Origin: Anagrus nilaparvatae
Taxonomy: Eukaryota; Arthropoda; Insecta; Hymenoptera; Mymaridae
Assembly (NCBI GenBank): GCA_022575985.1
Contig: JAKSXM010000237.1
Span: 6,590,501-6,654,500 of the forward strand
DNA length: 64,000 nt
Direction: 5' to 3'
Part shown: one piece after another, positions 27,702-62,658 of the stretch
Numbering within the stretch: the first letter of the stretch is position 1
Layout: every line of letters starts with the position of its first letter
Notes under the pieces: generated by a model
Databases searched by the model: none
What the model was told of the DNA's origin: nothing
What the model saw: only the letters and a program-made list of their open reading frames with translations
Translations under genes and position numbers: made by a program

Positions 27702-28448
27702 TGTTACGTATCCTGAGGTTTTATCCAAGGGATACGTAAATATAAATAATTATGAATATATGAAATATAAGTTTATCCTGGGGATATTGACTGCCCCAGG
27801 TATATTATATAAGTTGGTTTGGTGATTATTTGGTTGGTTTATAGTTAATGTATTTGTAGATGAGTTCGGGTTCGATCTAAGCTGGATGAACCTAACCTGA
27901 GGCTAAGTTCTTAATTACAGAAGGAATTGTCACTTACACAATAATAACTGATAACTGATTTGATATATAACTTTCACTTTATTGATTATAAGTAAATAAA
28001 ACTGTCTAAGTCTTTAAGTCGAGTAATTAAAGGTAGAACTGTAATAGAGTGGTAAGACTCTAAACGAAAGATAGTATTCTAATGGCTGGTTTGGGCGCCT
28101 GAAGGGCAATATATAATCTAATATGAATCTGCCCATATTCCGAGATTTTGAGGGAGACGTCCAATACAAAAAAGCGTCGGTCTCGTCACGTCCAATTAGC
28201 GAAGGCGTCCCTAATTATTACCGAGAATCGCGAGGTGGGATTTATGCAGTTTATAACGCCTAAATCCCTCCTAATTTACGTCATAGTTGACTTTTGGTCC
28301 CACGCTATTGTGCTAGATCAGCAACAGCGGAAATGCACCTGCGGGTTCCTATGTCGTCTGTAATATTAATACAGCTATCGGATATAGGGTTTACTATTTA
28401 TATATATCAAATGTTAGGCATATCAATTTTGACCTACCATACGTAACA
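27702..28448 (-). repeat. 3' LTR of the giant retroelement
   Basis: 747 bp, ending in the 10-bp inverted repeat TGTTACGTAT / ATACGTAACA. It is identical by eye to 61908-62654. In the sense (minus) direction it follows the polypurine tract, and contains an AATAAA about 465 bases in (27983-27978). The short plus-strand open frame at 28148-28363 is present in both LTRs and is antisense to the element. Confidence 0.96.
27978..27983 (-). terminator. AATAAA polyadenylation signal in the 3' LTR
   Basis: On the sense strand the LTR carries AATAAA, here placed as TTTATT on the plus strand. It is the only canonical hexamer I see in the LTR in that orientation and would define the end of R. The same signal at 62184-62189 lies in the 5' LTR. 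Confidence 0.6.
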
Positions 28449-28464
28449 TCTCCCTCCCTTCATT
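28449..28464 (-). promoter_or_regulatory. Polypurine tract (plus-strand primer)
   Basis: On the sense strand AATGAAGGGAGGGAGA abuts the 3' LTR directly. An unbroken purine run (apart from one T) at this position is the expected RNase H-resistant primer for plus-strand DNA synthesis. Confidence 0.85.
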
Positions 28465-28481
28465 CCAATCGTCCCGATTGG
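28465..28481. promoter_or_regulatory. Hairpin next to the polypurine tract
   Basis: CCAATCG-TCC-CGATTGG forms a perfect 7-bp stem with a 3-base loop, immediately inside the polypurine tract and followed by a G-rich run. The identical 17-mer recurs at 32904-32920. Confidence 0.75.
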
Positions 28482-28944
28482 GTCAGGTGGGGGAGATGGG
28501 GTTGAAGGCAGGGTTCCAAGGGGGTGGTAAATTTTAGAATTTTCTGTCAATAGTCAATGTCAATACATAATTATATAATATAAGTACATAATATAAAATT
28601 TTGATTAAATATTGATTTTATATAATTCTAAAATATATGTTTTATGATTATACATATAATGCTAATATTATAGTTTGTTTAATTAAAAAATTAAAAGTAG
28701 TAAAACTTGATTCTTGTAAAACATGTTTGAAAAACTTAATTTTTATATAAAAAAAATTTTTATAAAAGTAGTAAAATAATGAAAAACTTACATATTAAAA
28801 ACTTAATTTTTATAAAAAATTTAAAGTATAAAACTTGATTATTATAAAAATAGTAAAATAAGGAAAAAAAAACTATTTTATAAGATATGAAAAGAAATTT
28901 TTATAAAAAATAAGTGATGTTTTTGGATTTATCGACGCAGAATC
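28482..28944. other. AT-rich 3' untranslated segment after env
   Basis: G-rich start (GGTGGGGGAGATGGGG region) then A/T-rich sequence with loosely repeated GTAAAACTTGATT-like phrases. No coding region. Confidence 0.5.
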
Positions 28945-30915
28945 TTATGGAAGGTGCCAACTTAGTTCATTTATGGTTCTTTGACCTCTACTGTACTGTA
29001 CTAATTGTTCAGCAGGCATAATAATAATTGGGTTTCTTGGCACTTGGATTGGTTGGCTAATTGGTGTCTGTGGGCTGATTTCTGTGATTATTGGACTTTG
29101 GCTTATGTTGTCCTGTTGATTTCTTGTACCTGGAATCAGTCTAGAAAGATTAGTTTTTAAACCCCCGAGACAATATATTCCCAATTTACAGACGCTAAGT
29201 AGAACTATGATTACGATGATTATTATTAAAATTAAAAAAATATTTGATGAATTTGAATCAAATTTCATTTCAAGTTCCTTATACTCAGTCAACTTTTTTG
29301 CCTTTTCAATAATATCCCTTAGGTCAAATCCTGACTGTAAAGAGGTACTTTTAACGTTTGAAAAATTAATAGATTCATTTATAGTTTTGTAAACATTTGG
29401 TAAATATTTTTCATCAGTTTTATTTAGAATTGAAGCTAAGTTTAAATCAAGAGTGTTAAATAAAGTTGTATTAGTTTGTTCAACAAACTCTTGTGATGTT
29501 CTTAATGTAGCATACATAGATTTGCCTAAACAACCACTGTTAAGTTTTATTATGCCAAGTTTTGGTAAGGGCATTGTAACAGGAGCTAATCGGTCACAAG
29601 TTATAAAAATATTGTCGTTTTCAGTGGCAGAAAATGCCCAAGAATTTTCCAGAGATAGACGAATCCAATGACTTTTCGCCAATTTTTTGATCTTTATGTT
29701 ACATTCGTTTAAATCAAATTTTTGGCCTGTTAAAATTTTAATTTCACATTCACTATTATGGTCAATTGTTTGGGTGGGAGCAAAGTTTTTGCAAATATAG
29801 TTGTTTCTTATTTTTTTACAGTGTTGTAGATTTTCATATGTAATGGTTATGTAAGTTAACTTGTTTGATTCTAGAGCTACATATTCGAAACTAGGTAAAA
29901 TGTAAGTACATAAAGTTTGGTCTTGTAAATTTTGTCTAATTGGGAAGGGATTTAGTCTATAGAGGTCGAATCTAACATAATTTAATAAGGGTATTTGCAA
30001 AGAATAAATAAGCTGACCGTGAGTATAAATAACAGTTAATTTGGACATGTGGACTATGTCATTTACTGAATAAATGTTATTTTCCAATGGAAATTCAGCA
30101 TTTAGTGCTGATTCCTTTACTAATAGCATGGTGTGTTCTAATTGCTCTGGGTTCAGGAATTGTGGATGTATAGAACCTGATTGTGCACTTATTACTGCTT
30201 CGGTCAAGGTTTGGGCCTGAAGTTCATAATCTATAATCGCGTCTCTAATAACATTTAATGTGTTCATTACCAACAAATCATGTTTTACTCTCGAGGTCTC
30301 GTGTTTAATGGAGTCTAATTGTTTACTGAATTCATTGAAATGATTTTCAAATTCTGATAATTTTGAAGATATGACCTGAGTTTGATCTAAAAGTAATTTT
30401 GCTATATCTATTGATTTATTATAAGCCCTGGTTGCGATGTCCAATAATTGTTTGCCTTGTTCTTGATCAACGGTTCCAAATAGTATTCTTGAAATCTGGC
30501 CAATGAATTGTAAGGGAGCATCTCTTTTTGTTCTAGGTGAGGGTTTTTGATATACTGTTTTTAAAATGTTTTGAATTTCGCTTTCTGTAGCTGTAATTCT
30601 TTTACGCATTCCAGTGATATCTTCATTTGCAAAACAAGGTGAAAAACAGTATGGAATGGTTTGATTTATCCAAAGGTTTAACATCATGTTCGCTGTCAAT
30701 AAAGGAGTAAGGTCGATTTTGTTGAGAAGCTTCCATGAGATGTCTGAAATTCTGAGTCCATTGGTTCTTTCCAACAGTAGTCCAACATTTTGTTGAATAG
30801 GTTCAATTGAGGCGCCTTCAAAAGATTCTGAAGTCTTGATTATCCTACGAATAATATTTTGTTTTATAGGATGTTTCTTTTGAATTTTAATCTTATTAAA
30901 AGTGTGTTTTGTCAT
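28945..30915 (-). CDS. env: Env: baculovirus-F/errantivirus-type fusion glycoprotein
   Basis: 656 residues. A furin-type site RTKR lies at residues 128-131. It is followed directly by a hydrophobic stretch (APLQFIGQISRILFGT, about 133-148) in the position and style of the fusion peptide of baculovirus F proteins and gypsy-type Env. A long helical region follows. Near the C-terminus a strongly hydrophobic segment (about 559-581, ILIIIIVIIVLL) is the membrane anchor, with a cytoplasmic tail of about 75 residues. The role would be membrane fusion for cell-to-cell or germline transfer. The first 40 residues are basic and not a normal signal peptide. Since errantivirus Env is made from a spliced mRNA, the true N-terminus may come from an upstream exon. 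The frame is complete with no stops or shifts. Confidence 0.92.
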   Translation of the reverse strand: MTKHTFNKIKIQKKHPIKQNIIRRIIKTSESFEGASIEPIQQNVGLLLERTNGLRISDISWKLLNKIDLTPLLTANMMLNLWINQTIPYCFSPCFANEDITGMRKRITATESEIQNILKTVYQKPSPRTKRDAPLQFIGQISRILFGTVDQEQGKQLLDIATRAYNKSIDIAKLLLDQTQVISSKLSEFENHFNEFSKQLDSIKHETSRVKHDLLVMNTLNVIRDAIIDYELQAQTLTEAVISAQSGSIHPQFLNPEQLEHTMLLVKESALNAEFPLENNIYSVNDIVHMSKLTVIYTHGQLIYSLQIPLLNYVRFDLYRLNPFPIRQNLQDQTLCTYILPSFEYVALESNKLTYITITYENLQHCKKIRNNYICKNFAPTQTIDHNSECEIKILTGQKFDLNECNIKIKKLAKSHWIRLSLENSWAFSATENDNIFITCDRLAPVTMPLPKLGIIKLNSGCLGKSMYATLRTSQEFVEQTNTTLFNTLDLNLASILNKTDEKYLPNVYKTINESINFSNVKSTSLQSGFDLRDIIEKAKKLTEYKELEMKFDSNSSNIFLILIIIIVIIVLLSVCKLGIYCLGGLKTNLSRLIPGTRNQQDNISQSPIITEISPQTPISQPIQVPRNPIIIMPAEQLVQYSRGQRTINELSWHLP

Positions 30916-31523: not shown

Positions 31524-32351
31524 TTAGTTTTTGAAATTCTTGTTAAAACCATGTACATATGCAATGGTTCTAATATTTAAAATTGGATAATCCTTGGTAT
31601 CCAAGTTACACCATTTGCATATGCTTTTTCCATAAGGGTTTTTGCGGTGACACTCGTTAATTTCGTCAATTTTTTTGCATTGTATTTTGTAATGATGTAT
31701 TTCACTTTTGGCTTGTTCATTTAATAATTGTAATTGATGTATATAGGCGTCTTTTTCTCGAAGTTGTTGATCCATAGTTGCTTGATGAAAATTTTGATTA
31801 TTGAGTGGGGAAAAAGCTGGTTCATTGGAATTATATGGGTAGTTTTGGTATATATTTGTAGCACTCGATGGTTGTATAAAATTGAATGCGTTTCCAATTA
31901 TTGTATCTTGTATTATAGTAGGTTGATTGTTTTCGGCTAATGTATCAATATCATTATCAATAAAACTTTGAGGAGAATTTGAAAAATTTTCTGTATGTTG
32001 AATGTTTCGTCCTTCATTTATAATTAAGTTCAATGATTCGTTACTAGTATTGCTTTCTTTACCAAAATCAATCAGTTCTATTTTTTTACATATGTTATTT
32101 TCTGATTCTGTCCATTGCTGTTCTTCATTTACAGCGGTTGTTATTTGCGTAGCTTTTTGGTTTTCATTTATTATTGTTTCAAGTGTTGTTTTTCTGACTT
32201 TATTTGGTTTATCATAATTTCTTGGTCTGCCAGGGCGTCTTAATGAAATTGGATTTTCAAATGATCCGTCTGGTTCGTTTTCATATTTTCTTTTCTTTTT
32301 ATGTGCGTATTTTATTTTTAGTTTAATTGGTTCTACAGTGATGTTATTCAT
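31524..32351 (-). CDS. AT-hook / Cys-His cluster accessory protein A
   Basis: 275 residues, ATG at 32351. The order is a basic N-terminus, the segment GSFENPISLRRPGRPRN with an AT-hook core GRP flanked by Arg (about residues 38-46), and a long polar Asn/Gln/Ser-rich middle. A short coiled-coil (about 195-225) follows, then a C-terminal cluster ECHRKN...CKWC (about 232-248) that could bind zinc. The same start (GSF-NPI) and the same C-terminal cluster are found in the protein at 33109-33777, so the two are diverged duplicates. AT-hooks bind the minor groove of AT-rich DNA. A chromatin-tethering or transcription role for the element is my inference. I do not recognise a named family for the C-terminal cluster. 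Confidence 0.8.
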   Translation of the reverse strand: MNNITVEPIKLKIKYAHKKKRKYENEPDGSFENPISLRRPGRPRNYDKPNKVRKTTLETIINENQKATQITTAVNEEQQWTESENNICKKIELIDFGKESNTSNESLNLIINEGRNIQHTENFSNSPQSFIDNDIDTLAENNQPTIIQDTIIGNAFNFIQPSSATNIYQNYPYNSNEPAFSPLNNQNFHQATMDQQLREKDAYIHQLQLLNEQAKSEIHHYKIQCKKIDEINECHRKNPYGKSICKWCNLDTKDYPILNIRTIAYVHGFNKNFKN

Positions 32352-33108: not shown

Positions 33109-33777
33109 TTACTGTTTGTCTTTGTTTATATTTCCACATACATATGATATATGCTTAATGGCTAGTGATGGCATTGTGTTGGTAGATTGTTTGCACCAAT
33201 TACATTTAGAATTTGGTCTGTTATTTTTGCGGTGACATTCTCTTGTAATTTCAATTCTCCGAGTAAGGTTAACTAGGAAAGCTCGTCGTGATTCTAGTCT
33301 CTTATTTTCTTCTTGGAGTTCTCTAATTTCCAGTCTTTTCTTTTGGATGTCTTCGGTTAATGATGCACTATAATCAAAGGAAATTTGTTCCTGATCTATA
33401 AGTTTATGATTTTTATCTTGTAATGTTTCTGTGAATCTTGAAATCTGATTGTTTGTTAATACTGTAGTATTAATTTGTTCTTCAGGAACCGTATGTTCGT
33501 CCTCGATTTTTATTATCTCAGGAGTCAAACTATCTTCGAAATACACTGGTTCTGTTTTAAATTCCATTTCGTTTTCCCAACTTTTAGTTGTGTTAGTTGT
33601 TATTTCAAAATCCTCATTTGTTTTACTTTTTGTAGTTTTCCAAGTATTGTCAACTACTTTGATGGATTTTATTATTTTTTTCGGTCTCCCGACTTGTCTT
33701 TTTCCGATTGGGTTGTCAAAGGAACCTAATGCACTTTTATTTATCACTATTTTATGTATAGAACTTTTCGTTTCCAT
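33109..33777 (-). CDS. AT-hook / Cys-His cluster accessory protein B
   Basis: 222 residues, ATG at 33777. It has an N-terminal GSFDNPIGKRQVGRPKK with an AT-hook-like GRP core (about residues 25-31). An acidic middle includes a KIEDEH stretch and is followed by a heptad-rich coiled-coil (about 145-170). The C-terminal cluster ECHRKN...CNWC (about 181-196) leads into an ISYVCG ending that matches protein A. Its length differs from A mainly in the middle. The gene lies on the sense strand, 3' of the accessory region and 5' of protein A and env, so it could be expressed from spliced sense transcripts. The function is unknown; a DNA-binding accessory role is inferred. Confidence 0.8.
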   Translation of the reverse strand: METKSSIHKIVINKSALGSFDNPIGKRQVGRPKKIIKSIKVVDNTWKTTKSKTNEDFEITTNTTKSWENEMEFKTEPVYFEDSLTPEIIKIEDEHTVPEEQINTTVLTNNQISRFTETLQDKNHKLIDQEQISFDYSASLTEDIQKKRLEIRELQEENKRLESRRAFLVNLTRRIEITRECHRKNNRPNSKCNWCKQSTNTMPSLAIKHISYVCGNINKDKQ

Positions 33778-35836: not shown

Positions 35837-35838
35837 TG

Positions 35839-36128
35839 TAAATAATATGTAAAATAAAATCTTCCTTTACCATAATGTATTGTTTATAGATTTATTTATT
35901 TCCTTGACTTTATACTGGTATTTATTTTAATACGTTTATTAAATAGTTTAAATTTATTTATTTAATTTTTATTTGTTTATTTATTTATTTATTTGTTCAA
36001 ACATTCTGCTAGTTATAGTCCATTAAAAATAATTATTGGGTTGACTTGATTTTGTGGTTTTTAATGTTGTAAAGCTATTTTTATTCCGAAAATTGTGTTT
36101 GTTTTTTGTTTTTTTTATTTTTACGTAA
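35839..36128. other. AT-rich spacer
   Basis: Contains the polyadenylation signal of the membrane-protein gene (35853-35858) and TTTA-rich sequence; nothing else. Confidence 0.5.
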
Positions 36129-36768
36129 GTTTTCCGTTTTTCGACCAGGTTTTTTTTGTCTTGTGCGGTCAAATTTCGATTAAATAACTTAGTTTTGATT
36201 TTATTTAGTATATTTCATTGTCGGGAAGCTATTTTTATGGTGAAAATTGCGTTAGTTTTTCGTTTTTTATTTTTACGTAAGTTTTCCGTTTTTTGTCCAG
36301 GTTTTTTGTCTTATGCGGTCAAATTTCGATTAAATAACTTAGTTTTGATTTTATTTAGTATATTTCATTGTCGGGAAGCTATTTTTATGGTGAAAATTGC
36401 GTTAGTTTTTCGTTTTTTATTTTTACGTAAGTTTTCCGTTTTTTGTCCAGGTTTTTTGTCTTATGCGGTCAAATTTCGATTAAATAACTTAGTTTTGATT
36501 TTATTTAGTATATTTCATTGTCGGGAAGCTATTTTTATGGTGAAAATTGCGTTAGTTTTTCGTTTTTTATTTTTACGTAAGTTTTCCGTTTTTTGGCCAG
36601 GTTTTTTGTCTTATGCGGTCAAATTTCGATTAAATAACTTAGTTTTGATTTTATTTAGTATATTTCATTGTCGGGAAGCTATTTTTATGGTGAAAATTGC
36701 GTTAGTTTTTCGTTTTTTATTTTTACGTAAGTTTTCCGTTTTTTGTCCAGGTTTTTTGTCTACTGGTC
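36129..36768. repeat. 150-bp tandem repeat, four near-identical copies
   Basis: The phrase TTATGCGGTCAAATTTCGAT recurs at 36310, 36460 and 36610, with a slightly diverged first copy near 36158. The period is exactly 150, so one plus-strand frame stays open for 207 codons. Hydrophobic T-rich translation and homogenisation of non-coding type argue against a protein. Each unit contains ACGTAAGT, a 5'-splice-site-like string. Confidence 0.9.
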
Positions 36769-37195: not shown

Positions 37196-40100
37196 ATGGG
37201 AAATCAGGTAAGCTTTTGTTATTATTTTATTTTTCTCAATTAGTTTTTCTTTTAATTTATTGTTTTAATGTAAAATTTATAGTTGTATTGTATCGGAGCG
37301 ATAGTTAGGTTATATTTTTGTTATGTTCGATTTTACTTGTGTTAGTGAATGTCTGTGATGAATTTCGGTATAGTAGTAAATAAGTATATATGTTATCGTA
37401 AAGAGAATTTTGGAGGAGACTGAGCAAATTTGTATATAAAAAAAAATTTTATATTTATAGGAGGAGACTGAGGAAATTTATATAATGATTTTGTATTTTA
37501 TAAGAGGAGACTGAGCAATTTTTTTATGTTGGAGGAGACTGAGGAAATTTTTATATTTTATAGGAGGAGACTGAGCAAATTTATATGATGATTATGTATT
37601 TTATAAGTGGAGACTGAGCAATTTTTTTTTTTTTATGTTGGAGGAGACTGAGGAAATTTATATGAAAAAAAAAATTTTTATATTTTATAGGAGGAGACTG
37701 AGCAAATTTATATGATGATTATGTATTTTATAAGAGGAGACTGAGCAATTTTTTTTATGTTGGAGGAGACTGAGGAAATTTATATGAAAAAAAATTTTAT
37801 ATTTTATAGGAGGAGACTGAGCAAATTTATATGATGATTATGTATTTTATAAGAGGAGACTGAGCAATTTTTTTATGTTGGAGGAGACTGAGGAAATTTA
37901 TATGAAAAAAAAAAATTTTTATATTTTATAGGAGGAGACTGAGCAAATTTATATGATGATTATGTATTTTATAAGAGGAGACTGAGCAATTTTTTTTATG
38001 TTGGAGGAGACTGAGGAAATTTATATGAAAAAAAATTTTATATTTTATAGGAGGAGACTGAGCAAATTTATATGATGATTATGTATTTTATAAGAGGAGA
38101 CTGAGCAATTTTTTTATGTTGGAGGAGACTGAGGAAATTTATATGAAAAAAAAATTTTTATATTTTATAGGAGGAGACTGAGCAAATTTATATGATGATT
38201 ATGTATTTTATAAGAAGAGACTGAGCAATTTTTTTATGTTGGAGGAGACTGAGGGAATTTATATGAAAAAAAAATTTTTATATTTTATAGGAGGAGACTG
38301 AGCAAATTTATATGATGATTATGTATTTTATAAGAGGAGACTGAGCAATTTTTTTATGTTGGAGGAGACTGAGGAAATTTATATGAGAAAAAAAAATTTT
38401 TTATATTTTATAGGAGGAGACTGAGCAAATTTATATGATGATTATGTATTTTATAAGAGGAGACTGAGCAATTTTTTTATGTTGGAGGAGACTGAGGAAA
38501 TTTATATGAAAAAAAAATTTTTATATTTTATAGGAGGAGACTGAGCAAATTTATATGATGATTATGTATTTTATAAGAGGAGACTGAGCAATTTTTTTTA
38601 TGTTGGAGGAGACTGAGGAAATTTTTATATTTTATAGGAGGAGACTGAGCAAATTTATATGATGATTATGTATTTTATAAGAGGAGACTGAGCAATTTTT
38701 TTTTATGTTGGAGGAGACTGAGGAAATTTATATGAAAAAAAATTTTATATTTTATAGGAGGAGACTGAGCAAATTTATATGATGATTATGTATTTTATAA
38801 GAGGAGACTGAGCAATTTTTTTTATGTTGGAGGAGACTGAGGAAATTTATATGAAAAAAAAAATTTTTATATTTTATAGGAGGAGACTGAGCAAATTTAT
38901 ATGATGATTATGTATTTTATAAGAGGAGACTGAGGAAATTTATATGAAAAAAAATTTTATATTTTATAGGAGGAGACTGAGCAAATTTATATGATGATTA
39001 TGTATTTTATAAGAGGAGACTGAGCAATTTTTTTATGTTGGAGGAGACTGAGGAAATTTATATGAAAAAAAAATTTTTATATTTTATAGGAGGAGACTGA
39101 GCAAATTTATATGATGATTATGTATTTTATAAGAAGAGACTGAGCAATTTTTTTATGTTGGAGGAGACTGAGGAAATTTATATGAAAAAAAAAATTTTTA
39201 TATTTTATAGGAGGAGACTGAGCAAATTTATATGATGATTATGTATTTTATAAGAGGAGACTGAGCAATTTTTTTATGTTGGAGGAGACTGAGGAAATTT
39301 ATATGAGAAAAAGAAATTTTTTATATTTTATAGGAGGAGACTGAGCAAATTTATATGATGATTATGTATTTTATAAGAGGAGACTGAGCAATTTTTTTAT
39401 GTTGGAGGAGACTGAGGAAATTTATATGAAAAAAAAAAATTTTTATATTTTATAGGAGGAGACTGAGCAAATTTATATGATGATTATGTATTTTATAAGA
39501 GGAGACTGAGCAATTTTTTTTATGTTGGAGGAGACTGAGGAAATTTTTATATTTTATAGGAGGAGACTGAGCAAATTTATATGATGATTATGTATTTTAT
39601 AAGAGGAGACTGAGGAAATTTATATGAAAAAAAATTTTATATTTTATAGGAGGAGACTGAGCAAATTTATATGATGATTATGTATTTTATAAGAGGAGAC
39701 TGAGCAATTTTTTTATGTTGGAGGAGACTGAGGAAATTTATATGAAAAAAAAATTTTTATATTTTATAGGAGGAGACTGAGCAAATTTATATGATGATTA
39801 TGTATTTTATAAGAAGAGACTGAGCAATTTTTTTATGTTGGAGGAGACTGAGGAAATTTATATGAAAAAAAAAATTTTTATATTTTATAGGAGGAGACTG
39901 AGCAAATTTATATGATGATTATGTATTTTATAAGAGGAGACTGAGCAATTTTTTTATGTTGGAGGAGACTGAGGAAATTTATATGAGAAAAAAAAATTTT
40001 TTATATTTTATAGGAGGAGACTGAGCAAATTTATATGATGATTATGTATTTTATAAGAGGAGACTGAGCAATTTTTTTATGTTGGAGGAGACTGAGGAAA

Positions 40101-53229: not shown

Positions 53230-56200
53230 TTATACATCTGTATCGCTACTAGGAGCATCATCTAGCCAGTCCGTATTTTCTTCTGTAGGTGATTCGCAGA
53301 TATTACCGGGTTCTGTAGCTTCTCTAGCCGGTTTTAATAAATTCATGTGGACAACTTTTCTTATTTTTCCACATTTTATTTCGGCGTTATGTTTATCGTA
53401 ATCTATGCACGTGATTTCAAAAAATCCTAAAAAGGATGGTTTGGAGTGTTTTTCGCCGCTCCTGTTATTTATTAGGTAAATTATGTCACCAGTTTTAAAA
53501 TGTATTAAATTTGTTGACCTGTCATAATATTCCTTACTTTTATATTTTCTTTGTCTTTCCATAAAAATTGCATTAATACGCATTTCTGACAGTTTGGTGG
53601 TCATATCAGCAAGGTAATTATCATATAAAAGTATTTGTTCTCTAGGTGGGAATTCTGAAGGTATTCTAGCTTTGTATCCATAAATCAAAGTAAATGGAGG
53701 GTATCCTGTGCTTTCATGTTTTGTAATATTAAATGAAAAACAGGCTAATGGCAACCATTTTGGCCAATCATTACATTCAGACATATATATTTTAAGGTAA
53801 TTAATAAGTGGGGAGTGAAGTCTCTCAATGCATCCTTGGCTCATCGGGTGAAACGCGCTACTTTTGTACTTCCGTATTTTGAAAATCCTTGCGAGACCTT
53901 GGATGACCTTGTTACAGAAATGTGTCCCTTGATCCGAGGTCAGAATTTTAGGAGGACCATGCTTTGTTATGACATTATTAACTAATGCTTCTGCAACTTC
54001 CGTGGCTGAAGTGCCATGTAAAGGAGCAGCTATAAAAAATTTTGACATTATGTCAACTACGGTGAGTATCCAACAATAATTTTCAAATTTTGGTAAGGGT
54101 CCATGTAAATCTATGCTAATGTGGTCAAAGGGATGAACTGGAGAGTCTGAAATAGCCATGGGTAATTTAGTTTTGACTCTGGTAGATTTGACTCGTTGAC
54201 ATGTTGGACAACTGCGTATAAATAACAGTACTTCATCTCTCATGTGACGCCAGTAATGCCTTTCCGAGATTTTCGCTAAGCATTTGTGATATCCTCTATG
54301 TCCGCTCGTAGGAGGTTCGTGATATTGCCTAATAATTCTTTGTCTTTCTTCGGGAGGAGGTACTTGTAAATTGTCATGATAAAAAGTTGCTAGGATCTTT
54401 TTGCTTCCTAAATAATGATTTAATCTACTAATAAAATTTAATACTTGATTTGCGTTAAGAATATCTAGATCTTTAATGATTGAAATTGATTTAAAGTCAA
54501 ACCTGTCGATTAATGCTGCAAGATTTTTTAATGTTTTGTCTAAGTCAGTTCTCATAAACTTAGAGTCTATAAAAGGTTTGATAACTAAAGCGATTAAATT
54601 TTTATCTAATAATGGTATTACGATTACTTCGTGCATTTTTGGATAGTTACGAGTAATATCAGTAAGTCTTAATAAATTTTTTTCAATCAATGTACTCAAT
54701 ACTTCGGTTTGGTGTGCATCTTCAGTGATGCAAAAAACTAAATTTTGGAAACCGTGGTATGGGTGCTCTCCGGATATATCAACACATTTTAAAGGGTTTA
54801 AATTTGTATACTTAATATTTTTCTTATAGACCCATGGTGGTTTTCTAGGGGATGGTTCATGAGGGGTTTTATCTATGGGTTTTTCTTTTCCTGTTTCAGC
54901 TAACTCTTTTGATTTTTTTGAATTATTTTCGTTATGTGATTCAAGATTTTCAATTTCCATTGGGATTTTTATAGAATTTTCTGGAATATTCTCAATATTA
55001 GTGTTTTTAATTAAAGGGGTATAATGATTTGAAGCTAAATGTAAATGAAAAGTTTCAAATTTTTCACCTGCATAATAATAATTGAATTGATTTAGTTCAT
55101 TATCGCAGTAATGTACACATATATTTTTCTTAAATTCTTTTGCAAATAAATATACACAGTCGCTATCTCCCCATTCTTTGTCTTTGCTTAAAATATGGAA
55201 TGTGCTATCAGTATTTTCACAGTATTTTAAATAATTACTAGTTTTTAATTTATTTTTCAATTCTTTTATACTTAAATTAGTTTTTAATAAAATTACGAGG
55301 CTGTGGAATAAACAATCACCATCATTAGCTACTTTTAAATACCTAGTGAATTTTTCATTGGGTTCAGCACATTTTTCTATAGGGTTATAACGATTAAATT
55401 CATTTGGGTCATCAATTATTTTTTTATATTCAATTTTTTTATTACTGGTGGGAGCACATATTATTGCATTATCAGCTTCATTTTCTATTTCTTTAATATT
55501 TCCATTTTTATTAATATTTTCGATTTCCATATTTTCTATGTTATTATTTTCTAATTTATTATTTATTGGGTTATTTTTTAAATTATTTTTGCTTAAATTT
55601 TTAGTAAATATCGTAATTTCTGAATTTTTATCTATTACTTTGACATCTAATGATCCTTCAAATAAAATTTTATCTTGTATTTTTGCTTTATTTAATGTTA
55701 ATTTACATTTTTCTGAATCAATTGATTTTAATTTACTTTTGTTTAAAATATTATTTTCTGCATGATCTAATTTATCCATTTTATGTTTTAATATATCTTG
55801 CATAATTATTTCGTTTTCAGAAGTTGTTGCAGAATTTGGTATTTCTAAATCAGAGGTGTCAGAACTGGAAGTTCTTGGTAATTTAAATGATGAGGCTTTT
55901 GAAACGCAAGGGGACATTGGAGGTGGTTTATAATTCATGCCAGGGTATTTTGGGGTAAGTGGAGGGATTTTGGGTTTATCTTTTTTTGGTCTGCCTCTAC
56001 CTCTTTTAGGGATGTCGGAGGGTTGAGGGTAAGGTTCAACATCTTTTCTAGGTCTACCTCTGTTTCTTTTTATTGCTTTAGTTATTAGGGGATGGCTTTC
56101 TTCTGTCACAATTTCAACCTTTTTTATGATTGGTTTGGGTTTTTCAGGATTTTTTTTTGGTTTTTTCTTTTCAACATTAGATTCAGAACTACTTTCGAAA

Positions 56201-59200
56201 TATTTCTCGAAAGATACATTTTTATTTCTCCTTTCTCTTTTTCGTTTAGCCATAAATATATGAGATGCTGAGTAATTTTCTGAATCTTCAGAGTCAGAAT
56301 TGCTGCTGAGTTTAAATGTAACCTTTTTCTTTTGTATATATGAGTCAGATTCTGAAGAATAGCTTGAAAAATTGTCTTGTGTAAAAAAAATTTTGTTTGA
56401 TTCAATCCTAAGGAAGTGAGCAGATGAGTCAGAATCTGATGTGTCTGCAAGCATTTTATTTTCTGCTAAATTGTATAACTCAGTTCTAGGCATTTCTTCA
56501 CTTGGTATACCATCTTTAGTAACCGGATTTCTTGACAAAGCATCAGCAGCAGAATTTTTTGGTCCAGGTCTGTAGATTACTTCAAAATCATAATTCATTA
56601 TTTTAGCTCTTAAGTTACAAGCTCTTTGGTCAACTTTAGAAGAATTATGTTGTGATTTTAGTGGGAGGTGGTCACTAATAATATAAAATTTCTTTCCATA
56701 AATATAACTTCTGTATTGTTCGGTAGCAAACACCGTACTTAAGAGTTCACGGTGATAAACGCTGTAAAACGTCTCTGTATTAGTAAGTAGTCTTGAACTA
56801 TATGCAATTACATGCTCGTTTCCATCTTCGTCTAACTGTTCCAAGATGGCGCTCACGGCGATATCGCTAGCATCGCAGACTATGTAAAAAAATTTTGAAA
56901 AATCTGGAAGTACTAGAATTGGGTGTTCACACAATTTTTGCTTTAAGGTGTTAAAAGCAGTTTCTTGTTCGGTACCCCAAATAAATGGTTCATCTTTTCT
57001 TAACAAGTTTGTAAGTGGTTTAGCTATAGTTGCATAGTCTTTTATGAATTTTCTGTAGAAGCCGGATAGGCCAAGAAATTGTCTTATTTTTTTGACAGTA
57101 TTTGGAACAGGGAATTTTTCAACGGCTTCGATTTTATCAGGGGATGGAGTAATTTTGTTGTCGCCGACAATATGACCCAGAATTTTGATTTGGCGTCGCA
57201 GGAAAAAGCATTTTTTTGGATCTATAAGAAGTTTCGTTTCTTTTAATCGTTGTAGAAGCTGTCTGAGTCTGATTGAGTGTTGTTCAAGTGATTTTGCGAT
57301 CATAATTAGATCATCCAAGTATGCGAAGACCCAGTCGGGTCCTAGAGTCTCCAGAATCTTCTGCATTAGCCTGCAGAACACTAATGGGCTCGATTTTAAA
57401 CCCATAGGTGAACGCTCATACAGCCACAGATTGTTATTGGCTGCAAATGCAGTGTATTTTTGAGAATCTTCAGTTAGCTTAATTTGATGGAAAGCCATTT
57501 TTGCATCAAGAGAGCTTAAGTAGCGGCAATTGCTTAATTTATCAAGTATTTCGGTTATATTTGGCATGGGAAAAGCATCTCCTATAATTATTTCATTTAT
57601 TTTTCTAAAATCTAAAATTGCCCTATATTGTTTTTCCCCATTTTCACCACATTGTTTCTTAGGGATGACATAAATTGGAGAACAATACTCAGAATATCCA
57701 GGTTTTATAATTCCTAACTCTAAATGTTCTTTCAGAATTTTATCCAGAGCTTTTTGAGCTTCAGGAGGGTGTCTAAAGGTTTTACATCTGATAGGTACAT
57801 TAGAAGAAACTTCAATTTTATGTTCAATTAAAGGGGTACAAGTAAATTTTCTACCCTTAACATAAAATACTTCGGCAAATTCGTAAACTAAGGTTTCTAT
57901 ACTTTTTCTTTCTTCATTATCTAGGCCATTTAAGTCAATATCTTTTATAACTTTGGCATATAATTCGTCTCTATCAAAATTTTCTTCATCAAAATCATTT
58001 TTTATTTCAGAAATTTCATTAATTGTTTCAGGAATGTAATTTTCTTCAATATTTTCAACTATTTCATATGGTTCTAATTCGACAGTTGGGGCTTCAATTT
58101 CGATTTTTTCATCACTGAGGTTTACACACATGATATATGCTAAACCGTTTCTATTTGTTGCTAATACGTCTCCAATGTAAAGATTTGGATGTAAATTTAT
58201 TTCAGGCATATATCCTTCTTTTACGGCATTGGATACATGAACATATATTCCTTGTTCGGAGTTTGGTCCAATAACAAACTTTTCTTTATTTCTAAACGGG
58301 ATAACGAGTGGTCCTAAGTATAAGTTCATTTTTGCTAGGTCAATTAATCCTTCATATTTTTGCATCATATCTAAGCCTAAAATTCCATCATAACCAGTAC
58401 AATAATCGTCTTTTACAACATGAAAAAGGCATTGTAATTTATTTAATGTTATTATTACTGCGCCTTTAGTACATTCGGCTACGCCTGAAAATCCGATTAA
58501 TCTTAAAATAACGCCAGTGTTTACAAAAACAGATGAGCGTAGTGCTGATTCTTTAATTAATGAGACGTCCGCGCCCGTATCTATTAAGAGATTTGAGCCG
58601 TTTTCGACTAAATCTGGGCTGTGGAATTGGACAACGGGTGGTATTTTTTTTATAGTTGCGTATCTTATGTGAGCAGAAGGAAATTCAGTTTTAATTGGTA
58701 ATATAAAAGTTAACGGTTTTTGTTTAATTTCTTCAGGTTGTAATACATATATAAGGTTTAATTGTTTATCAATTATTGTTTGTTTAACTTTAGTTTCAAG
58801 ATTTGAAGTATTTTCTGGTTTAGCTTTTTGTTTTTCTGTATTAGTTTTTAATTTTGAATTTTTATCATTTGTTGAAAAAGGGAAAGAATCTTCTAATTTA
58901 AAAGTTGATTTAGGTTTTTCGATAGTTAAGCTAGAGGTTTTATTTATCTTTGGGGCATCAAGTATTTCCTTAGGTTTTTCAGTAATTAAGTCTAAATCAG
59001 ATTGGGTTTGAGTGATTATTTTTAATTTTTCAGAGTTTGTAGGGTTTATTTTTGGTTTAAGAGTTGATTTCGGCTTTTCAAATTTAAAATTTATTTCTGG
59101 TTCATGGGTTAATTTATTGTTATTTGAAGTAAAATCCTTTTCTGGAATGTTTGAAGAAGGGGTGCGATTTTCTATATTAATTGGGGTTTCAAAGGGTATT

Positions 59201-59352
59201 ATGTTTGAAATGTGTATTTCATCATTATTAAGGTTTAAAATTGAAGGTAAAGAGTTATTGTAAAAGGTTTTCGAGATTGCGTTTGTATAAAAGGTGTCAA
59301 AATCTTGTTTTAATTTTGGCCCAAACTCACTCGAGGATGGGCAAGTAACTAG
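53230..59352 (-). CDS. pol: Pol polyprotein: protease, RT, RNase H, AT-hook linker, OTU-like protease, integrase
   Basis: The frame is open from the gag frameshift site (59352) to the stop at 53230, about 2,040 codons, in the -1 frame relative to gag. An ATG occurs only at 58368. Using residue numbers from that ATG: the retropepsin DTG lies upstream (58581-58573) and ends at ILGLDMM; RT has YLDD at 350-353; RNase H has its first Asp at 499 (VCDAS) and another at 609. A Ser/Lys-rich linker carries two AT-hooks (GRP cores about 770 and 792). An OTU-like domain has D1016-G-D-C1019 and H1115. The integrase zinc finger spans about 1350-1390, and the integrase core is D1420, D1479, E1515 (35 residues between the last two). 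A GPY/F-like end lies about 1640-1690. All catalytic residues are present and there is no stop. Ordinary gypsy Pol is about 1,000-1,200 residues; the excess is the linker plus OTU region between RNase H and integrase. Confidence 0.95.
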   Translation of the reverse strand, partial: LVTCPSSSEFGPKLKQDFDTFYTNAISKTFYNNSLPSILNLNNDEIHISNIIPFETPINIENRTPSSNIPEKDFTSNNNKLTHEPEINFKFEKPKSTLKPKINPTNSEKLKIITQTQSDLDLITEKPKEILDAPKINKTSSLTIEKPKSTFKLEDSFPFSTNDKNSKLKTNTEKQKAKPENTSNLETKVKQTIIDKQLNLIYVLQPEEIKQKPLTFILPIKTEFPSAHIRYATIKKIPPVVQFHSPDLVENGSNLLIDTGADVSLIKESALRSSVFVNTGVILRLIGFSGVAECTKGAVIITLNKLQCLFHVVKDDYCTGYDGILGLDMMQKYEGLIDLAKMNLYLGPLVIPFRNKEKFVIGPNSEQGIYVHVSNAVKEGYMPEINLHPNLYIGDVLATNRNGLAYIMCVNLSDEKIEIEAPTVELEPYEIVENIEENYIPETINEISEIKNDFDEENFDRDELYAKVIKDIDLNGLDNEERKSIETLVYEFAEVFYVKGRKFTCTPLIEHKIEVSSNVPIRCKTFRHPPEAQKALDKILKEHLELGIIKPGYSEYCSPIYVIPKKQCGENGEKQYRAILDFRKINEIIIGDAFPMPNITEILDKLSNCRYLSSLDAKMAFHQIKLTEDSQKYTAFAANNNLWLYERSPMGLKSSPLVFCRLMQKILETLGPDWVFAYLDDLIMIAKSLEQHSIRLRQLLQRLKETKLLIDPKKCFFLRRQIKILGHIVGDNKITPSPDKIEAVEKFPVPNTVKKIRQFLGLSGFYRKFIKDYATIAKPLTNLLRKDEPFIWGTEQETAFNTLKQKLCEHPILVLPDFSKFFYIVCDASDIAVSAILEQLDEDGNEHVIAYSSRLLTNTETFYSVYHRELLSTVFATEQYRSYIYGKKFYIISDHLPLKSQHNSSKVDQRACNLRAKIMNYDFEVIYRPGPKNSAADALSRNPVTKDGIPSEEMPRTELYNLAENKMLADTSDSDSSAHFLRIESNKIFFTQDNFSSYSSESDSYIQKKKVTFKLSSNSDSEDSENYSASHIFMAKRKRERRNKNVSFEKYFESSSESNVEKKKPKKNPEKPKPIIKKVEIVTEESHPLITKAIKRNRGRPRKDVEPYPQPSDIPKRGRGRPKKDKPKIPPLTPKYPGMNYKPPPMSPCVSKASSFKLPRTSSSDTSDLEIPNSATTSENEIIMQDILKHKMDKLDHAENNILNKSKLKSIDSEKCKLTLNKAKIQDKILFEGSLDVKVIDKNSEITIFTKNLSKNNLKNNPINNKLENNNIENMEIENINKNGNIKEIENEADNAIICAPTSNKKIEYKKIIDDPNEFNRYNPIEKCAEPNEKFTRYLKVANDGDCLFHSLVILLKTNLSIKELKNKLKTSNYLKYCENTDSTFHILSKDKEWGDSDCVYLFAKEFKKNICVHYCDNELNQFNYYYAGEKFETFHLHLASNHYTPLIKNTNIENIPENSIKIPMEIENLESHNENNSKKSKELAETGKEKPIDKTPHEPSPRKPPWVYKKNIKYTNLNPLKCVDISGEHPYHGFQNLVFCITEDAHQTEVLSTLIEKNLLRLTDITRNYPKMHEVIVIPLLDKNLIALVIKPFIDSKFMRTDLDKTLKNLAALIDRFDFKSISIIKDLDILNANQVLNFISRLNHYLGSKKILATFYHDNLQVPPPEERQRIIRQYHEPPTSGHRGYHKCLAKISERHYWRHMRDEVLLFIRSCPTCQRVKSTRVKTKLPMAISDSPVHPFDHISIDLHGPLPKFENYCWILTVVDIMSKFFIAAPLHGTSATEVAEALVNNVITKHGPPKILTSDQGTHFCNKVIQGLARIFKIRKYKSSAFHPMSQGCIERLHSPLINYLKIYMSECNDWPKWLPLACFSFNITKHESTGYPPFTLIYGYKARIPSEFPPREQILLYDNYLADMTTKLSEMRINAIFMERQRKYKSKEYYDRSTNLIHFKTGDIIYLINNRSGEKHSKPSFLGFFEITCIDYDKHNAEIKCGKIRKVVHMNLLKPAREATEPGNICESPTEENTDWLDDAPSSDTDV

Positions 59353-61157
59353 TTTAAATGCTTTTCTGGTTTATTTTCAATACTTTGGGAGTTTTTTATA
59401 TTGTTGGAAGAGTTATTTGGTTGTTGGTTTGGATTACTATTCATAGGAGGGGGGGTATTAGAGAAATTGTGAGGGAAATTTTGATTATTTTCATTTTGAG
59501 GATAATTTTGAGCAAAATTTTGGCCTTGGTCGAAATTTTGGGTTTGGTTAGAATAATTTTGGTTTTGGGATGGGAAATTTTGGTATTCCATCATATTTTG
59601 ATTTGAATAATTTGGATAAAAGTTATTAGGGTTTGAAAAATTACGATTTCTATTATTACCGCGATATTGTCCACGATTATTATTGTAGTTTTGGCGATTA
59701 TTTGGGTTAAAATTCTGATTGTTGGGGTATCTATTAAAATTTTGATAAGAATTAAAATTTTGTTGACTGTTTGGGTATTGATTAAAATTTTGGTTATATC
59801 GGTTATTATTGTTTCGGCCTCCTCTATTATAACCCTGATTGTAACGATTATAGTTATTTCCTCTGTTTGGTTGCCACCAAGGTGGTGGGTAATTTTGGGG
59901 GTAATTTTCAAAAGCAGGAGTTAAGGTTGTAATTGGAGTATCAGGTTCTTGGATTTCGGTAGGGTGTTTAATTTTTCCTTGTTCAACAGATTTAAATAAT
60001 TCTTTACATTGGGATATATCATGACTAGTACTTTTACAGAAAATACATTGCTTTTTTGGAGGTTCCGCGGCAACAGTGCGTATACCTGTTATATCATGTC
60101 CTGTTGTATTCATCACGTTATTACGTAATTTTTGTATTTCTAAAAATTGGTTTATTAATTGAAAAATTTCTGAAGTTGAGGCTGTGCTGACACTGGATGT
60201 GTCGTCCATCGCAAAGTTGTTTGGTTCAACTGGAGTAACTGGTGCGTGTTTTAATGTACAAAACTCATGTCTTTGTACCGAGCGACGTCTACCTTCAAGG
60301 TTAACTGCAATGTTAGCAGCTTCTCGCAAAGTTTTTGGTTGTTTTGAGGCTACTCTATATTCCGGAGGATTTCTCAATCCAAAAAGAAAGCATTCAAGGG
60401 CTTCAATACTAGTTCGCTTTTTCCATTGTTCTTTTTCGGTTGCGGTTAAGCTAACTGATGAATCATAAATTGCATGTAAAGCTTGTTCTAAATTTTGTAC
60501 GCGTAAGGCATAATCGGCTACTGGTTCGCCAGGGTTTTGTTCGGCTTGTCTCATATCTAATTTAATAGTATCTGCGTCAGTGATACCTCCAAAACTTAAT
60601 TTTAAATCTTGTAAAAAATTTTCTAAACTGGTGTAATTAGGAGCAATTCCTGCGTAAGCGTCGTATGCTCGGCCTTTAAGGCGGCGAGGGATTGAATTTA
60701 ACAAAAATTGTTCGCAGCCTGGTCCATACGTTTTAACAATATCTTTCAAAACTTTAGAAAAAGCTTGTAGGGTTTGTGGTTGACCGGAAAAATCGGGTAT
60801 ATTTGCAATAGCAGTTATAAGTGGCACAAGATTATTTAATCTGGGTCTATTATTAGCGTTGTTTGGTACATTTTGTATTCCATTGTTACGATTTTGTTCA
60901 TTATTTTCCATTTCGTTCAAAATTTCGTTAGCTACTTCTATATTTAATGATCTTTCAGAGTTAATTATATTTGTCATTTGTTCACGTTGTCGTAGCATTT
61001 CTAAATTGAGGCGTTCAATTTCTTGGGCTAAATTGGTTACATCTATATTATTGGGTGGGTTAGTTTGAGGGCCGTCCATGGTTCGGTTTAATTCACTATT
61101 AATTGATTCGGTATCAGAAAATGTATCTCGCGGTTGTCGCCAAGAATTATTTGGCAT
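59349..61157 (-). CDS. gag: Gag polyprotein
   Basis: 602 residues, ATG at 61157, stop TAG at 59351-59349. A coiled-coil N-terminus (about 45-90) precedes a capsid-like helical region (about 115-300, containing FSGQPQTLQAF and YGPGCEQFLL). A CCHC zinc knuckle (C-x2-C-x4-H-x4-C, residues 371-384) follows. The last 180 residues are extremely Asn/Gln/Tyr-rich with RGGRNNNNRYNQ-type phrases, a low-complexity tail that could bind RNA or condense. The role is assembly of virus-like particles and packaging of the genomic RNA. The presence of a CCHC knuckle is typical of many Ty3/gypsy elements. Confidence 0.93.
   Translation of the reverse strand: MPNNSWRQPRDTFSDTESINSELNRTMDGPQTNPPNNIDVTNLAQEIERLNLEMLRQREQMTNIINSERSLNIEVANEILNEMENNEQNRNNGIQNVPNNANNRPRLNNLVPLITAIANIPDFSGQPQTLQAFSKVLKDIVKTYGPGCEQFLLNSIPRRLKGRAYDAYAGIAPNYTSLENFLQDLKLSFGGITDADTIKLDMRQAEQNPGEPVADYALRVQNLEQALHAIYDSSVSLTATEKEQWKKRTSIEALECFLFGLRNPPEYRVASKQPKTLREAANIAVNLEGRRRSVQRHEFCTLKHAPVTPVEPNNFAMDDTSSVSTASTSEIFQLINQFLEIQKLRNNVMNTTGHDITGIRTVAAEPPKKQCIFCKSTSHDISQCKELFKSVEQGKIKHPTEIQEPDTPITTLTPAFENYPQNYPPPWWQPNRGNNYNRYNQGYNRGGRNNNNRYNQNFNQYPNSQQNFNSYQNFNRYPNNQNFNPNNRQNYNNNRGQYRGNNRNRNFSNPNNFYPNYSNQNMMEYQNFPSQNQNYSNQTQNFDQGQNFAQNYPQNENNQNFPHNFSNTPPPMNSNPNQQPNNSSNNIKNSQSIENKPEKHLN
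59352..59358 (-). promoter_or_regulatory. UUUAAAC -1 ribosomal frameshift site
   Basis: In the gag frame the last codons are read T-TTA-AAC followed at once by the TAG stop (59351-59349). This heptamer is a classical X-XXY-YYZ slippery site, and a slip of -1 enters exactly the pol frame. I did not establish a downstream pseudoknot. Confidence 0.85.
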
Positions 61158-61539: not shown

Positions 61540-61624
61540 AAAAATAATTTTTCAGGAACTGCTTACGAAGATGTAGATAAATTTCTTTAGATGGTATTGT
61601 GTGGTATAACGGTTTTAAATAATT

Positions 61625-61831
61625 TCAATGATCTTGAGATTTTGATTGATTAGAGTTGATTTCTTCGTTGAGTTCGGTAGTATAATTTACAGTCACTATT
61701 ACTTTACTATTTGACTTGTTTGTTGATAGTATTTCGTGTTTTGAAATTTTAAAATTTTCTTTTACTTTTCCTTTACAATTTTGGCAGTTTGGATATTTGC
61801 AGGTATAATAGCGTTGGCCTTTCTTTGCCAT
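61625..61831 (-). CDS. Small Cys-containing leader ORF, 68 aa
   Basis: ATG at 61831, about 55 bases downstream of the primer-binding site, so it would be the first ORF of the genomic transcript. The protein is basic with YYTCKYPNCQNCKGKVK near the start (three Cys in C-x3-C-x2-C-like spacing) and a polar C-terminus. No domain is recognised. It may be a real upstream ORF, the first exon of spliced accessory or env messages, or chance in AT-rich DNA. Confidence 0.4.
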   Translation of the reverse strand: MAKKGQRYYTCKYPNCQNCKGKVKENFKISKHEILSTNKSNSKVIVTVNYTTELNEEINSNQSKSQDH

Positions 61832-61884
61832 ATACTTTAAATGTTATCTTGATAGGAAATATGCTTTTGTTCCTTCTTACCAGC

Positions 61885-61902
61885 TTTCCTTTGAGGGAGC
61901 CA
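61885..61902 (-). promoter_or_regulatory. Candidate primer-binding site
   Basis: On the sense strand the 5' LTR is followed by TAAAT and then TGGCTCCCTCAAAGGAAA. TGG complements the 3' CCA of a tRNA. I could not match the rest to a specific tRNA from memory. The position five bases after the LTR is plausible. Confidence 0.6.
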
Positions 61903-61907
61903 ATTTA

Positions 61908-62654
61908 TGTTACGTATCCTGAGGTTTTATCCAAGGGATACGTAAATATAAATAATTATGAATATATGAAATATAAGTTTATCCTGGGGATATTGACTGC
62001 CCCAGGTATATTATATAAGTTGGTTTGGTGATTATTTGGTTGGTTTATAGTTAATGTATTTGTAGATGAGTTCGGGTTCGATCTAAGCTGGATGAACCTA
62101 ACCTGAGGCTAAGTTCTTAATTACAGAAGGAATTGTCACTTACACAATAATAACTGATAACTGATTTGATATATAACTTTCACTTTATTGATTATAAGTA
62201 AATAAAACTGTCTAAGTCTTTAAGTCGAGTAATTAAAGGTAGAACTGTAATAGAGTGGTAAGACTCTAAACGAAAGATAGTATTCTAATGGCTGGTTTGG
62301 GCGCCTGAAGGGCAATATATAATCTAATATGAATCTGCCCATATTCCGAGATTTTGAGGGAGACGTCCAATACAAAAAAGCGTCGGTCTCGTCACGTCCA
62401 ATTAGCGAAGGCGTCCCTAATTATTACCGAGAATCGCGAGGTGGGATTTATGCAGTTTATAACGCCTAAATCCCTCCTAATTTACGTCATAGTTGACTTT
62501 TGGTCCCACGCTATTGTGCTAGATCAGCAACAGCGGAAATGCACCTGCGGGTTCCTATGTCGTCTGTAATATTAATACAGCTATCGGATATAGGGTTTAC
62601 TATTTATATATATCAAATGTTAGGCATATCAATTTTGACCTACCATACGTAACA
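61908..62654 (-). repeat. 5' LTR of the giant retroelement
   Basis: Direct repeat of 27702-28448. In the sense direction transcription would start here. AATAAA is at 62189-62184. A TATATAAATAG string close to the outer end is probably too near the edge to be the promoter TATA. Confidence 0.96.
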
Positions 62655-62658
62655 ATAC
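62655..62658. repeat. Target-site duplication ATAC (right copy)
   Basis: Matches 27698-27701 exactly. Confidence 0.9.

Follow-up and report, generated by a model that had tools for sequence, protein, structure and literature searches.

Structure of the element

The window analyzed here is a stretch of 64,000 nucleotides from Anagrus nilaparvatae (assembly GCA_022575985.1, contig JAKSXM010000237.1, positions 6,590,501 to 6,654,500). It contains a giant long terminal repeat (LTR) retroelement that reads on the minus strand, encodes gag, pol, and env, and carries accessory genes between pol and env, several of them antisense. Its principal features are as follows.

27698-27701, no strand: target-site duplication ATAC, left
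27702-28448, minus: 3' LTR, identical partner of 61908-62654
28449-28466, minus: polypurine tract adjoining the 3' LTR, purine run GAAGGGAGGGAGA
28945-30915, minus: env, 656 aa, open, baculovirus-F-type fusion protein (Baculo_F, E=3e-45)
31524-32351, minus: sense accessory open reading frame (ORF), 275 aa, GRP and CHRK...CKWC motif, by eye
33109-33777, minus: sense accessory ORF, 222 aa, GRP (AT-hook-like) and CHRK...CNWC motif, by eye
37435-40645, plus: copy-specific tandem array upstream of the JmjC-zinc-finger gene, proposed binding array, 12-mer GAGGAGACTGAG 76 times
41040-42990, plus: antisense JmjC-C2H2 gene, with exon 41040-41340, predicted 63-nt GT-AG intron 41341-41403, JmjC exon, and zinc fingers to 42990
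44422-46719, no strand: nested foldback element, 2.3 kb, 1038-nt arms, 99% complementary
48424-49867, plus: antisense F-box-leucine-rich-repeat (LRR) gene, with ATG exon, predicted 79-nt GT-AG intron 48427-48505, and exon 48506-49867
50909-51541, minus: DEDDh 3'-5' exonuclease, 210 aa (Pfam RNase_T, E=4.9e-15)
53230-58368, minus: pol, 1712 aa, open, with reverse transcriptase (YLDD), RNase H, a middle region of ~740 aa, and integrase
59349-61157, minus: gag, 602 aa, open, one CCHC-pattern match (PNMA E=0.0016, below cut-off)
61885-61902, minus: putative primer-binding site, TGGCTCCCTCAAAGG..., by eye
61908-62654, minus: 5' LTR, identical to 27702-28448 at 747 of 747 positions
62655-62658, no strand: target-site duplication ATAC, right

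The LTRs start with TGTTACGTA and end with TACGTAACA. The putative primer-binding site is a stretch starting with TGG, 5 nt inward of the 5' LTR, that was recognized by eye (a tRNA partner was not sought). The preliminary description of this DNA had reported identical 747-bp LTRs, an ATAC duplication, a polypurine tract, and open gag, pol, and env genes, all of which are confirmed to the base. The element has the features of Ty3/Gypsy elements (Metaviridae), namely paired LTRs of the form TG...CA, polypurine tract, target-site duplication, gag, and the order reverse transcriptase-RNase H-integrase, and Ty3 is among the solved chains closest to its reverse transcriptase. It is also errantivirus-like in that a baculovirus-F-type env lies between pol and the 3' LTR; among solved structures, this env matches the fusion protein 9w4d (E=2.7e-20). 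A scan of gag, env, and the LRR protein against NCBIfam returned no family. About 14.9 of the 35.0 kb is coding, and the gap between pol and env measures about 22 kb.

Giant copies in the same genome

The window's own assembly (488.7 Mb, 393 contigs) was searched for the LTR and the genes of the element; in what follows, C-numbers denote assembly contigs and L-numbers extracted loci. The LTR search gave at least 41 matches, including both window LTRs, and the copy counts derived from it are lower bounds because 40 of 1008 candidates were scored. Six giant LTR pairs of this family (family 1) were recognized. The duplications were checked in five of them, the window included and C95:17922259-17955303 left out.

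Window copy: 35.0 kb, duplication ATAC, LTRs 747/747
C342:14476950-14508177: 31.2 kb, duplication ATAT, LTRs 749/753
C147:2013560-2043452: 29.9 kb, duplication ATTG, LTRs 757/758
C175:1226676-1267302: 40.6 kb, duplication ACTT, LTRs 750/750
C215:212908-248302: 35.4 kb, duplication AAAT, LTRs 746/751

All five pairs have a matching 4-bp duplication, at five different sites on different contigs, and LTR identity is 99.3-100%. The copies on C342, C147, and C175 contain env, the 275-aa ORF, JmjC, LRR, exonuclease, pol, and gag in the order found in the window. Exonuclease and LRR matches lie inside all five copies, and JmjC and gag matches inside four. The remaining copy, on C215, has pol, exonuclease, LRR, and the 275-aa ORF, as well as an env in two pieces with stops; the gene searches gave no JmjC or gag match there. 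The LRR and env sequences of the window, C342, and C175 copies are 99-100% identical. Across the genome, full-length and stop-free matches account for 11 of 72 for env (99-100% identity), 10 of 89 for the exonuclease (95-100%, plus three at 70%), and 10 of 98 for LRR (83-100%). A distant subfamily (pol 75% in DNA), represented by C218:1473696-1487690 and C215:279844-297855, has exonuclease (70%), LRR, and JmjC matches in the same order and on the same strands.

These results support the earlier proposal that the entire ~35-kb unit, accessory region included, moved as one LTR retroelement, since five of five checked giant copies have duplications of their own. That proposal would have failed if all other copies were ordinary 8-10-kb elements without the accessory block; three further copies carry the whole block. 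The preliminary description did not include the nested palindrome, the predicted introns of the antisense genes, the arrays that differ between copies, or the related 49-63-kb family described below. The description of the window copy as an intact 35-kb unit needs qualification. Its LTRs, duplication, gag, pol, and env are intact, but the frame of its JmjC-zinc-finger gene is broken and it holds the 2.3-kb palindrome. We infer that the palindrome is a nested insertion and not part of the native unit, because three other copies are shorter over exactly that interval, by 2.22-2.34 kb; its absence elsewhere is judged by spacing, as the extracted loci end before it. Without the palindrome, the window element measures about 32.7 kb.

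Two candidate LTR pairings were dropped. At C79:17854794/17864743, both flanks are identical and the outer ends do not match, while the first member of C196:8749506/8807605 is a solo LTR flanked by an ATAA duplication of its own. Rearranged giant loci also occur: C95:21093000-21128600 has two env/JmjC around one gag-pol, and in C317:12249500-12275800 env is directed opposite to gag-pol. The C175 copy (L087 155-4801) has extra arrays of 123, 128, and 152 bp that were unseen in the other stretches read and are perhaps nested material lengthening this 40.6-kb copy.

A second, longer family

Matches to env at 36% identity led to a second family, with LTRs of ~590 bp. Exact duplications flank all four LTR pairs that were checked (the mismatch counts below omit a few small gaps).

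C347:431510-480456: 48.9 kb, duplication CCAT, LTRs with 589 matches and no mismatch
C79:5432126-5483938: 51.8 kb, duplication CCGT, LTRs with 584 matches and 5 mismatches
C79:17684571-17740708: 56.1 kb, duplication CTAA, LTRs with 589 matches and no mismatch
C1:1128709-1191711: 63.0 kb, duplication ATTG, LTRs with 578 matches and 4 mismatches

In each of the four, env matches without stops, within an open frame of 664-665 aa, and LRR matches twice in antisense orientation. On C347, the stretch 441,000-460,900 contains two antisense ORFs resembling F-box-LRR genes and an antisense piece that by eye is JmjC-like, with env following; a sense ORF bearing a CHKK...CKWC motif lies in the same stretch, and at least 35 kb separate the first LRR from env. 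The 63.0-kb element has an antisense PF02373 match. None of the four elements gave a match to PF00929 (RNase_T). Gag and pol were not located in family 2, which is known here from its LTRs, env, and accessory genes. Nested insertions may inflate some of these lengths, as in the window.

Giant elements with antisense accessory genes are general in this genome. Of 34 diverged env loci, 13 are accompanied on the gag-pol side by an antisense LRR no more than 60 kb away, compared with two on the other side and three on the same strand; a shift control gave a mean of 0.08 and a maximum of 4. The 34 loci are the env matches below about 62% identity, minus C79:14832016 and C281:299317 (second pieces of other matches), and the LRR matches used are the 65 of 98 at 32% identity or less. 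The 13 loci are not independent events, because several of them, including the four family-2 elements, are copies within a single family.

Accessory genes

The exonuclease retains the motif residues DxE, D, and HxxxxD. Its closest solved chain is 9l8b (E=1.8e-22), and the nearest chains are labelled exodeoxyribonuclease III, followed by polC-type, DnaQ, and exuperantia; none is ExoN. Relatives among public proteins are few, with five for the exonuclease and two for the JmjC-zinc-finger protein.

In the F-box-LRR gene, the predicted intron extends a 427-aa ORF to an F-box-like start. The same GT-AG intron was found in the window and in three of seven loci searched (L044, L045, L046). A structure model of a family-2 LRR protein has a predicted local distance difference test score (pLDDT) of 73, and its best solved matches include TIR1, SKP2, FBXL2, and FBXL17.

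The JmjC domain of the window (E=1.1e-11) retains the HxE...H residues. Its 63-nt GT-AG intron occurs at the same place in the window, L051, and L052 (three of nine sequences caught by the search pattern), with stops inside it in L051 and L052. Four C2H2 fingers are present in each of L051, L052, L058, and L059.

All three genes are under purifying selection, as supported by ratios of nonsynonymous to synonymous change (dN/dS, Nei-Gojobori). These are 0.02-0.14 for the exonuclease where dS is finite, a range that leaves out two pairs with infinite dS and includes several saturated pairs (dS above 2). For LRR they are 0.23-0.28 in 12 of 15 pairs, each of which differs by more than eight changes; the three pairs left out have 6-8 changes (0.15, 0.25, 0.50). 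For the JmjC exon they are 0.24-0.44. JmjC exons are divergent, with dN of 0.39-0.57 in nine of ten pairs (window, L051, L052, L056, L059); the remaining pair, C342 and C175, has a dN of 0.067.

Tandem arrays and zinc fingers

Beside the array adjoining the JmjC gene, the window contains two others.

36072-36761, no strand: 150-bp tandem array, also in L085, L088, L041
34166-34922, no strand: 134-bp AT-rich tandem array, also in L085, L086 (132 bp), L088, L089

The 134-bp array, which lies farther from the JmjC gene, is common to four of five giant copies and was not seen in the C175 stretch read. In contrast, each of the five giant copies read has a different array adjoining the JmjC gene. 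Four of these are LTR-paired, and the fifth, at C215:134306-158210 (C215:144k), is a giant copy without a recognized LTR pair. Their array units are as follows.

Window: GGAGGAGACTGAG
C342:14.49 Mb: CAGGTAGTGGGTTTGGA
C175: GGGGTTCGGATTGGA
C147: GGCGGTTGGACTCGAAA
C215:144k: TTGTGGTATGGGTGAAA

An older copy, L040, whose JmjC is 87% like that of the window, carries the window's array. The C342 and C175 copies have similar JmjC exons, yet their finger contact residues differ and so do their arrays.

Fingers and arrays were compared by means of a recognition code. The fraction of alternative finger sets that score as well on the copy's own array is 0.012 for the window, 0.027 for C342, and 0.017 for C175, and the best site lies on the strand of the JmjC gene in each of these three copies. 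For the older copy, of which two fingers were read, 0 of 42 alternative sets score as well. Combined p-values are 0.004 for the five copies and 0.0005 for the three best, a subset picked after seeing the result. Set-normalized shares are 18% for the window, 2.4% for C342, 1.5% for C175, 84% for C147, 59% for C215:144k, and 29% for the older copy. By predicted recognition, the fingers point to their own array in three of five copies, which is support and not proof.

Interpretation and alternative explanations

We consider it highly probable that the window element belongs to a giant, env-bearing, errantivirus-like lineage of Ty3/Gypsy, which inserts by the normal LTR route as units of 30-63 kb and carries antisense genes with a proposed anti-silencing role. 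The elements insert as whole units with 4-bp duplications, share accessory genes between copies and between families, keep three of these genes under purifying selection, hold several of them in antisense orientation, and vary in the array that lies beside a varying JmjC-zinc-finger gene. The accessory block is old and mobile. Its antisense genes are predicted to have GT-AG introns, which could survive the RNA stage because the genes are antisense to the genomic RNA; this suggests a simple way for a retroelement to keep introns through that stage.

The arrangement is probably a self-addressed anti-silencing system, an animal retroelement analogue of Arabidopsis VANC. The sense genes would supply gag, pol, env, and two DNA-binding-like proteins, and in family 1 the sense exonuclease would trim nucleic acids. 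The antisense strand would make a JmjC-zinc-finger protein with fingers that bind the tandem array beside its own gene, so that the JmjC demethylase could strip repressive histone marks from its own copy and close kin. The antisense F-box-LRR protein may serve as an adaptor for a ubiquitin ligase, through which a host restriction factor is removed. Re-addressing from copy to copy would then allow an LTR retroelement to evade silencing, and an F-box protein of the Skp1-cullin-F-box type would form a second arm. In its most specific form, the proposal is that the genomic RNA measures 30-63 kb and that the zinc-finger-JmjC protein of each copy is matched to a private array, opening itself and its nearest kin and not its rivals. 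This form is tentative and falls a little short of an even chance. RNA genomes of 49-63 kb would rival the longest known, as family 2 would if its RNA is full length. The JmjC-zinc-finger gene and its private array make the escape of a retroelement from heterochromatin silencing testable by binding and chromatin assays.

Several observations weigh against these functional assignments. Pfam reports no F-box, which was assigned by eye. The LRR model also matches NLR and ribonuclease-inhibitor LRRs, all template-modelling scores are under 0.55, and its first 37 residues have a pLDDT below 50. The JmjC domain is a weak sequence match to solved demethylases (best E=0.033), and the frame of the window gene breaks in finger 1. 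The recognition code used is a simplified one. Own arrays are unmatched in two of the five pairs, C147 (0.95, two fingers read) and C215:144k (0.47, three fingers), both with fingers cut off by the ends of the extracted loci. Once scores are normalized to the maximum of each finger set, neither the window (0.18) nor the older copy (0.29) reaches significance. When fingers and arrays were permuted five by five, the true pairing had rank 3 of 120 by one score and rank 12 by a second. In terms of z-scores, the C342 array suits the C175 fingers slightly better than their own array does (4.37 against 3.61), and the highest value for the two C147 fingers (8.13) is obtained with the array of the window.

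The size of the units might be explained in other ways. If the window held an ordinary errantivirus of ~10 kb that had acquired a 20-kb insertion of its own, or if the assembly had been wrongly joined there, the accessory block would be peculiar to it. The nested 2.3-kb palindrome does appear by spacing to be a private insertion in the window copy, but five LTR-paired giant copies on five contigs have matching duplications and four of them have the full gene order. Purifying selection on the accessory genes and the presence of part of the same block in a second family likewise oppose this explanation. Because other giant copies have duplications of their own, this explanation is ruled out in practice, and we assign it almost no probability. 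The giant copies could also have spread by segmental duplication or LTR-LTR recombination instead of reverse transcription of a giant RNA. Such processes would fit the identical flanks at the LTRs of C79:17854794 and on the C79:17865488 side, the two env around one gag-pol at 21.09-21.13 Mb of C95, and the env opposite to gag-pol at 12.25-12.28 Mb of C317. They are very unlikely to account for the nine giant pairs examined in both families, which lie at nine sites and are all bounded at their LTR ends by exact 4-bp duplications (flanks read by eye). The chance of one such match is 0.0079 at this base composition, and that of nine in nine is about 1e-19.

The arrays and the exonuclease also admit different readings. 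Errantivirus insulator arrays are known, such as the Su(Hw) sites of gypsy, and the arrays may have nothing to do with the fingers and serve as promoter, insulator, or structural repeats. Their co-variation with the JmjC gene would then come from exchange of the JmjC-array segment as one piece, which is expected anyway because the two are adjacent. The two unmatched finger-array pairs and the modest support from permutation are in keeping with this. On the other side, the three matching copies, with 3-4 fingers read, beat 97-99% of alternative finger sets on their own array, and C342 and C175 differ in finger contacts and arrays despite similar JmjC exons. We regard this reading as a substantial possibility, somewhat below evens. 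For the DEDDh exonuclease, the large nidoviruses provide a precedent in ExoN, a proofreading exonuclease that permits a large genome. A similar role here would agree with the presence of the gene in all five LTR-paired family-1 copies checked and with its retained motif residues. It is nevertheless unlikely: ExoN is not among the closest solved chains, and the enzyme is seemingly not needed for size because the four larger elements of 49-63 kb lack an RNase_T match.

Relation to known elements

Errantiviruses (gypsy, ZAM; Metaviridae) have the order gag-pol-env, a Ty3-type reverse transcriptase, a baculovirus-F-type env, a polypurine tract, and a 4-bp duplication. The window element shares all of these. 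It differs in the ~740-aa middle region of pol and in the about 22 kb between pol and env, and the elements described here are several times longer. What is new here is the length of 49-63 kb, the antisense accessory genes shared across families, and the probable self-addressed JmjC-zinc-finger system.

For that system, the nearest parallel is found in the VANDALs, which are plant DNA transposons. VANC is to our knowledge not a JmjC protein, whereas the present case is an animal LTR retroelement with C2H2 fingers and a JmjC domain. The window has the VANC-like feature of copy-specific noncoding tandem repeats beside the gene for the factor. In Arabidopsis, the factor encoded by a VANDAL acts on noncoding tandem repeats of the element itself, and these repeats are variable among related copies (PMC5735166, PMC10398659). 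Action on a copy's own variable repeats is thus shown for VANC and proposed here.

The traditional size limit of retrotransposons is near 10 kb, with Ogre, at 25 kb, and Burro, slightly above 30 kb, as the largest LTR elements on record (PMC6431247). Our literature searches for giant LTR elements, on partial texts, found none above Burro. Here, exact target duplications flank nine LTR pairs of 29.9-63.0 kb, which suggests that units far above the traditional limit can pass through reverse transcription and integration. Burro of planarians is a Ty3/Gypsy element of >30 kb, with an internal region of up to 25 kb and env inside one huge polyprotein (PMC6431247). Like the present elements, it is a giant LTR element of the Gypsy-like kind that contains tandem repeats, a homologue of env, and additional domains of the ubiquitin/apoptosis type (PMC6431247). 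However, Burro has a single giant gag/env/pol polyprotein, while the elements here have separate ORFs, env 3' of pol, and several antisense accessory genes, and family 2 reaches 49-63 kb with LTRs of ~0.59 kb. An orchid Gypsy element of 25,510 bp gained an AlkB N6-methyladenosine (m6A) demethylase and owes its size largely to LTRs of 6.4 kb (PMC9289625). It is likewise a giant Gypsy element with an acquired demethylase gene, but by that account the orchid enzyme is an RNA demethylase; here, a histone-demethylase-type domain is antisense, joined to zinc fingers, and accompanied by short LTRs.

Short derivatives and additional observations

Four short LTR pairs with matching 4-bp duplications were also found (12.3, 8.2, 8.0, and 13.2 kb). 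The 12.3-kb copy has gag (87%) and part of pol's middle region, with no reverse transcriptase or integrase ORF in the 7.9 kb read, and in the 8.0-kb copy no ORF reaches 100 aa over the 6.3 kb read; these two copies therefore look non-autonomous. Dozens of gag matches at 85-87% without a matching pol match, among the 40 scored, fit this view. The short derivatives are presumably mobilized by proteins from the giant copies.

Within pol, residues ~600-1330 form an unusual stretch of ~740 aa between RNase H and integrase, part of which is retained in the gag-bearing 12.3-kb derivative. The following minor features complete the window element.

54409-55491, minus: tentative OTU-like cysteine-protease region within pol, DGDCLFHSL ... 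NHYTPL by eye
52006-52500, plus: antisense ORF, 164 aa, no family above cut-off

The Pfam OTU match in pol is below cut-off (E=0.012), the match to 6dx2 has E=0.79, and the structure model has a mean pLDDT of 34. Ginger1 DNA transposons associate a Gypsy-type integrase with an OTU protease (PMC2836005). From what that source describes, the likeness lies in an OTU domain alongside this integrase, and the differences are the class of element and the position of the tentative region here, between RNase H and integrase. Among the sense accessory ORFs, the C-terminus of the 275-aa ORF matches the 222-aa ORF (32%).

Genome-wide JmjC matches include many more ORFs, approximately 200-460 aa long and about 30% identical, which may belong to another JmjC-bearing repeat family. 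Finally, the COX1 sequences suggest that the assembly is probably that of an insect reared alongside Nilaparvata lugens: contig C146 has a COX1 that is 100% that of Nilaparvata lugens, a second animal-type COX1 lies on C18, and C244 and C264 carry intron-split COX1 matches of another, perhaps fungal, source.

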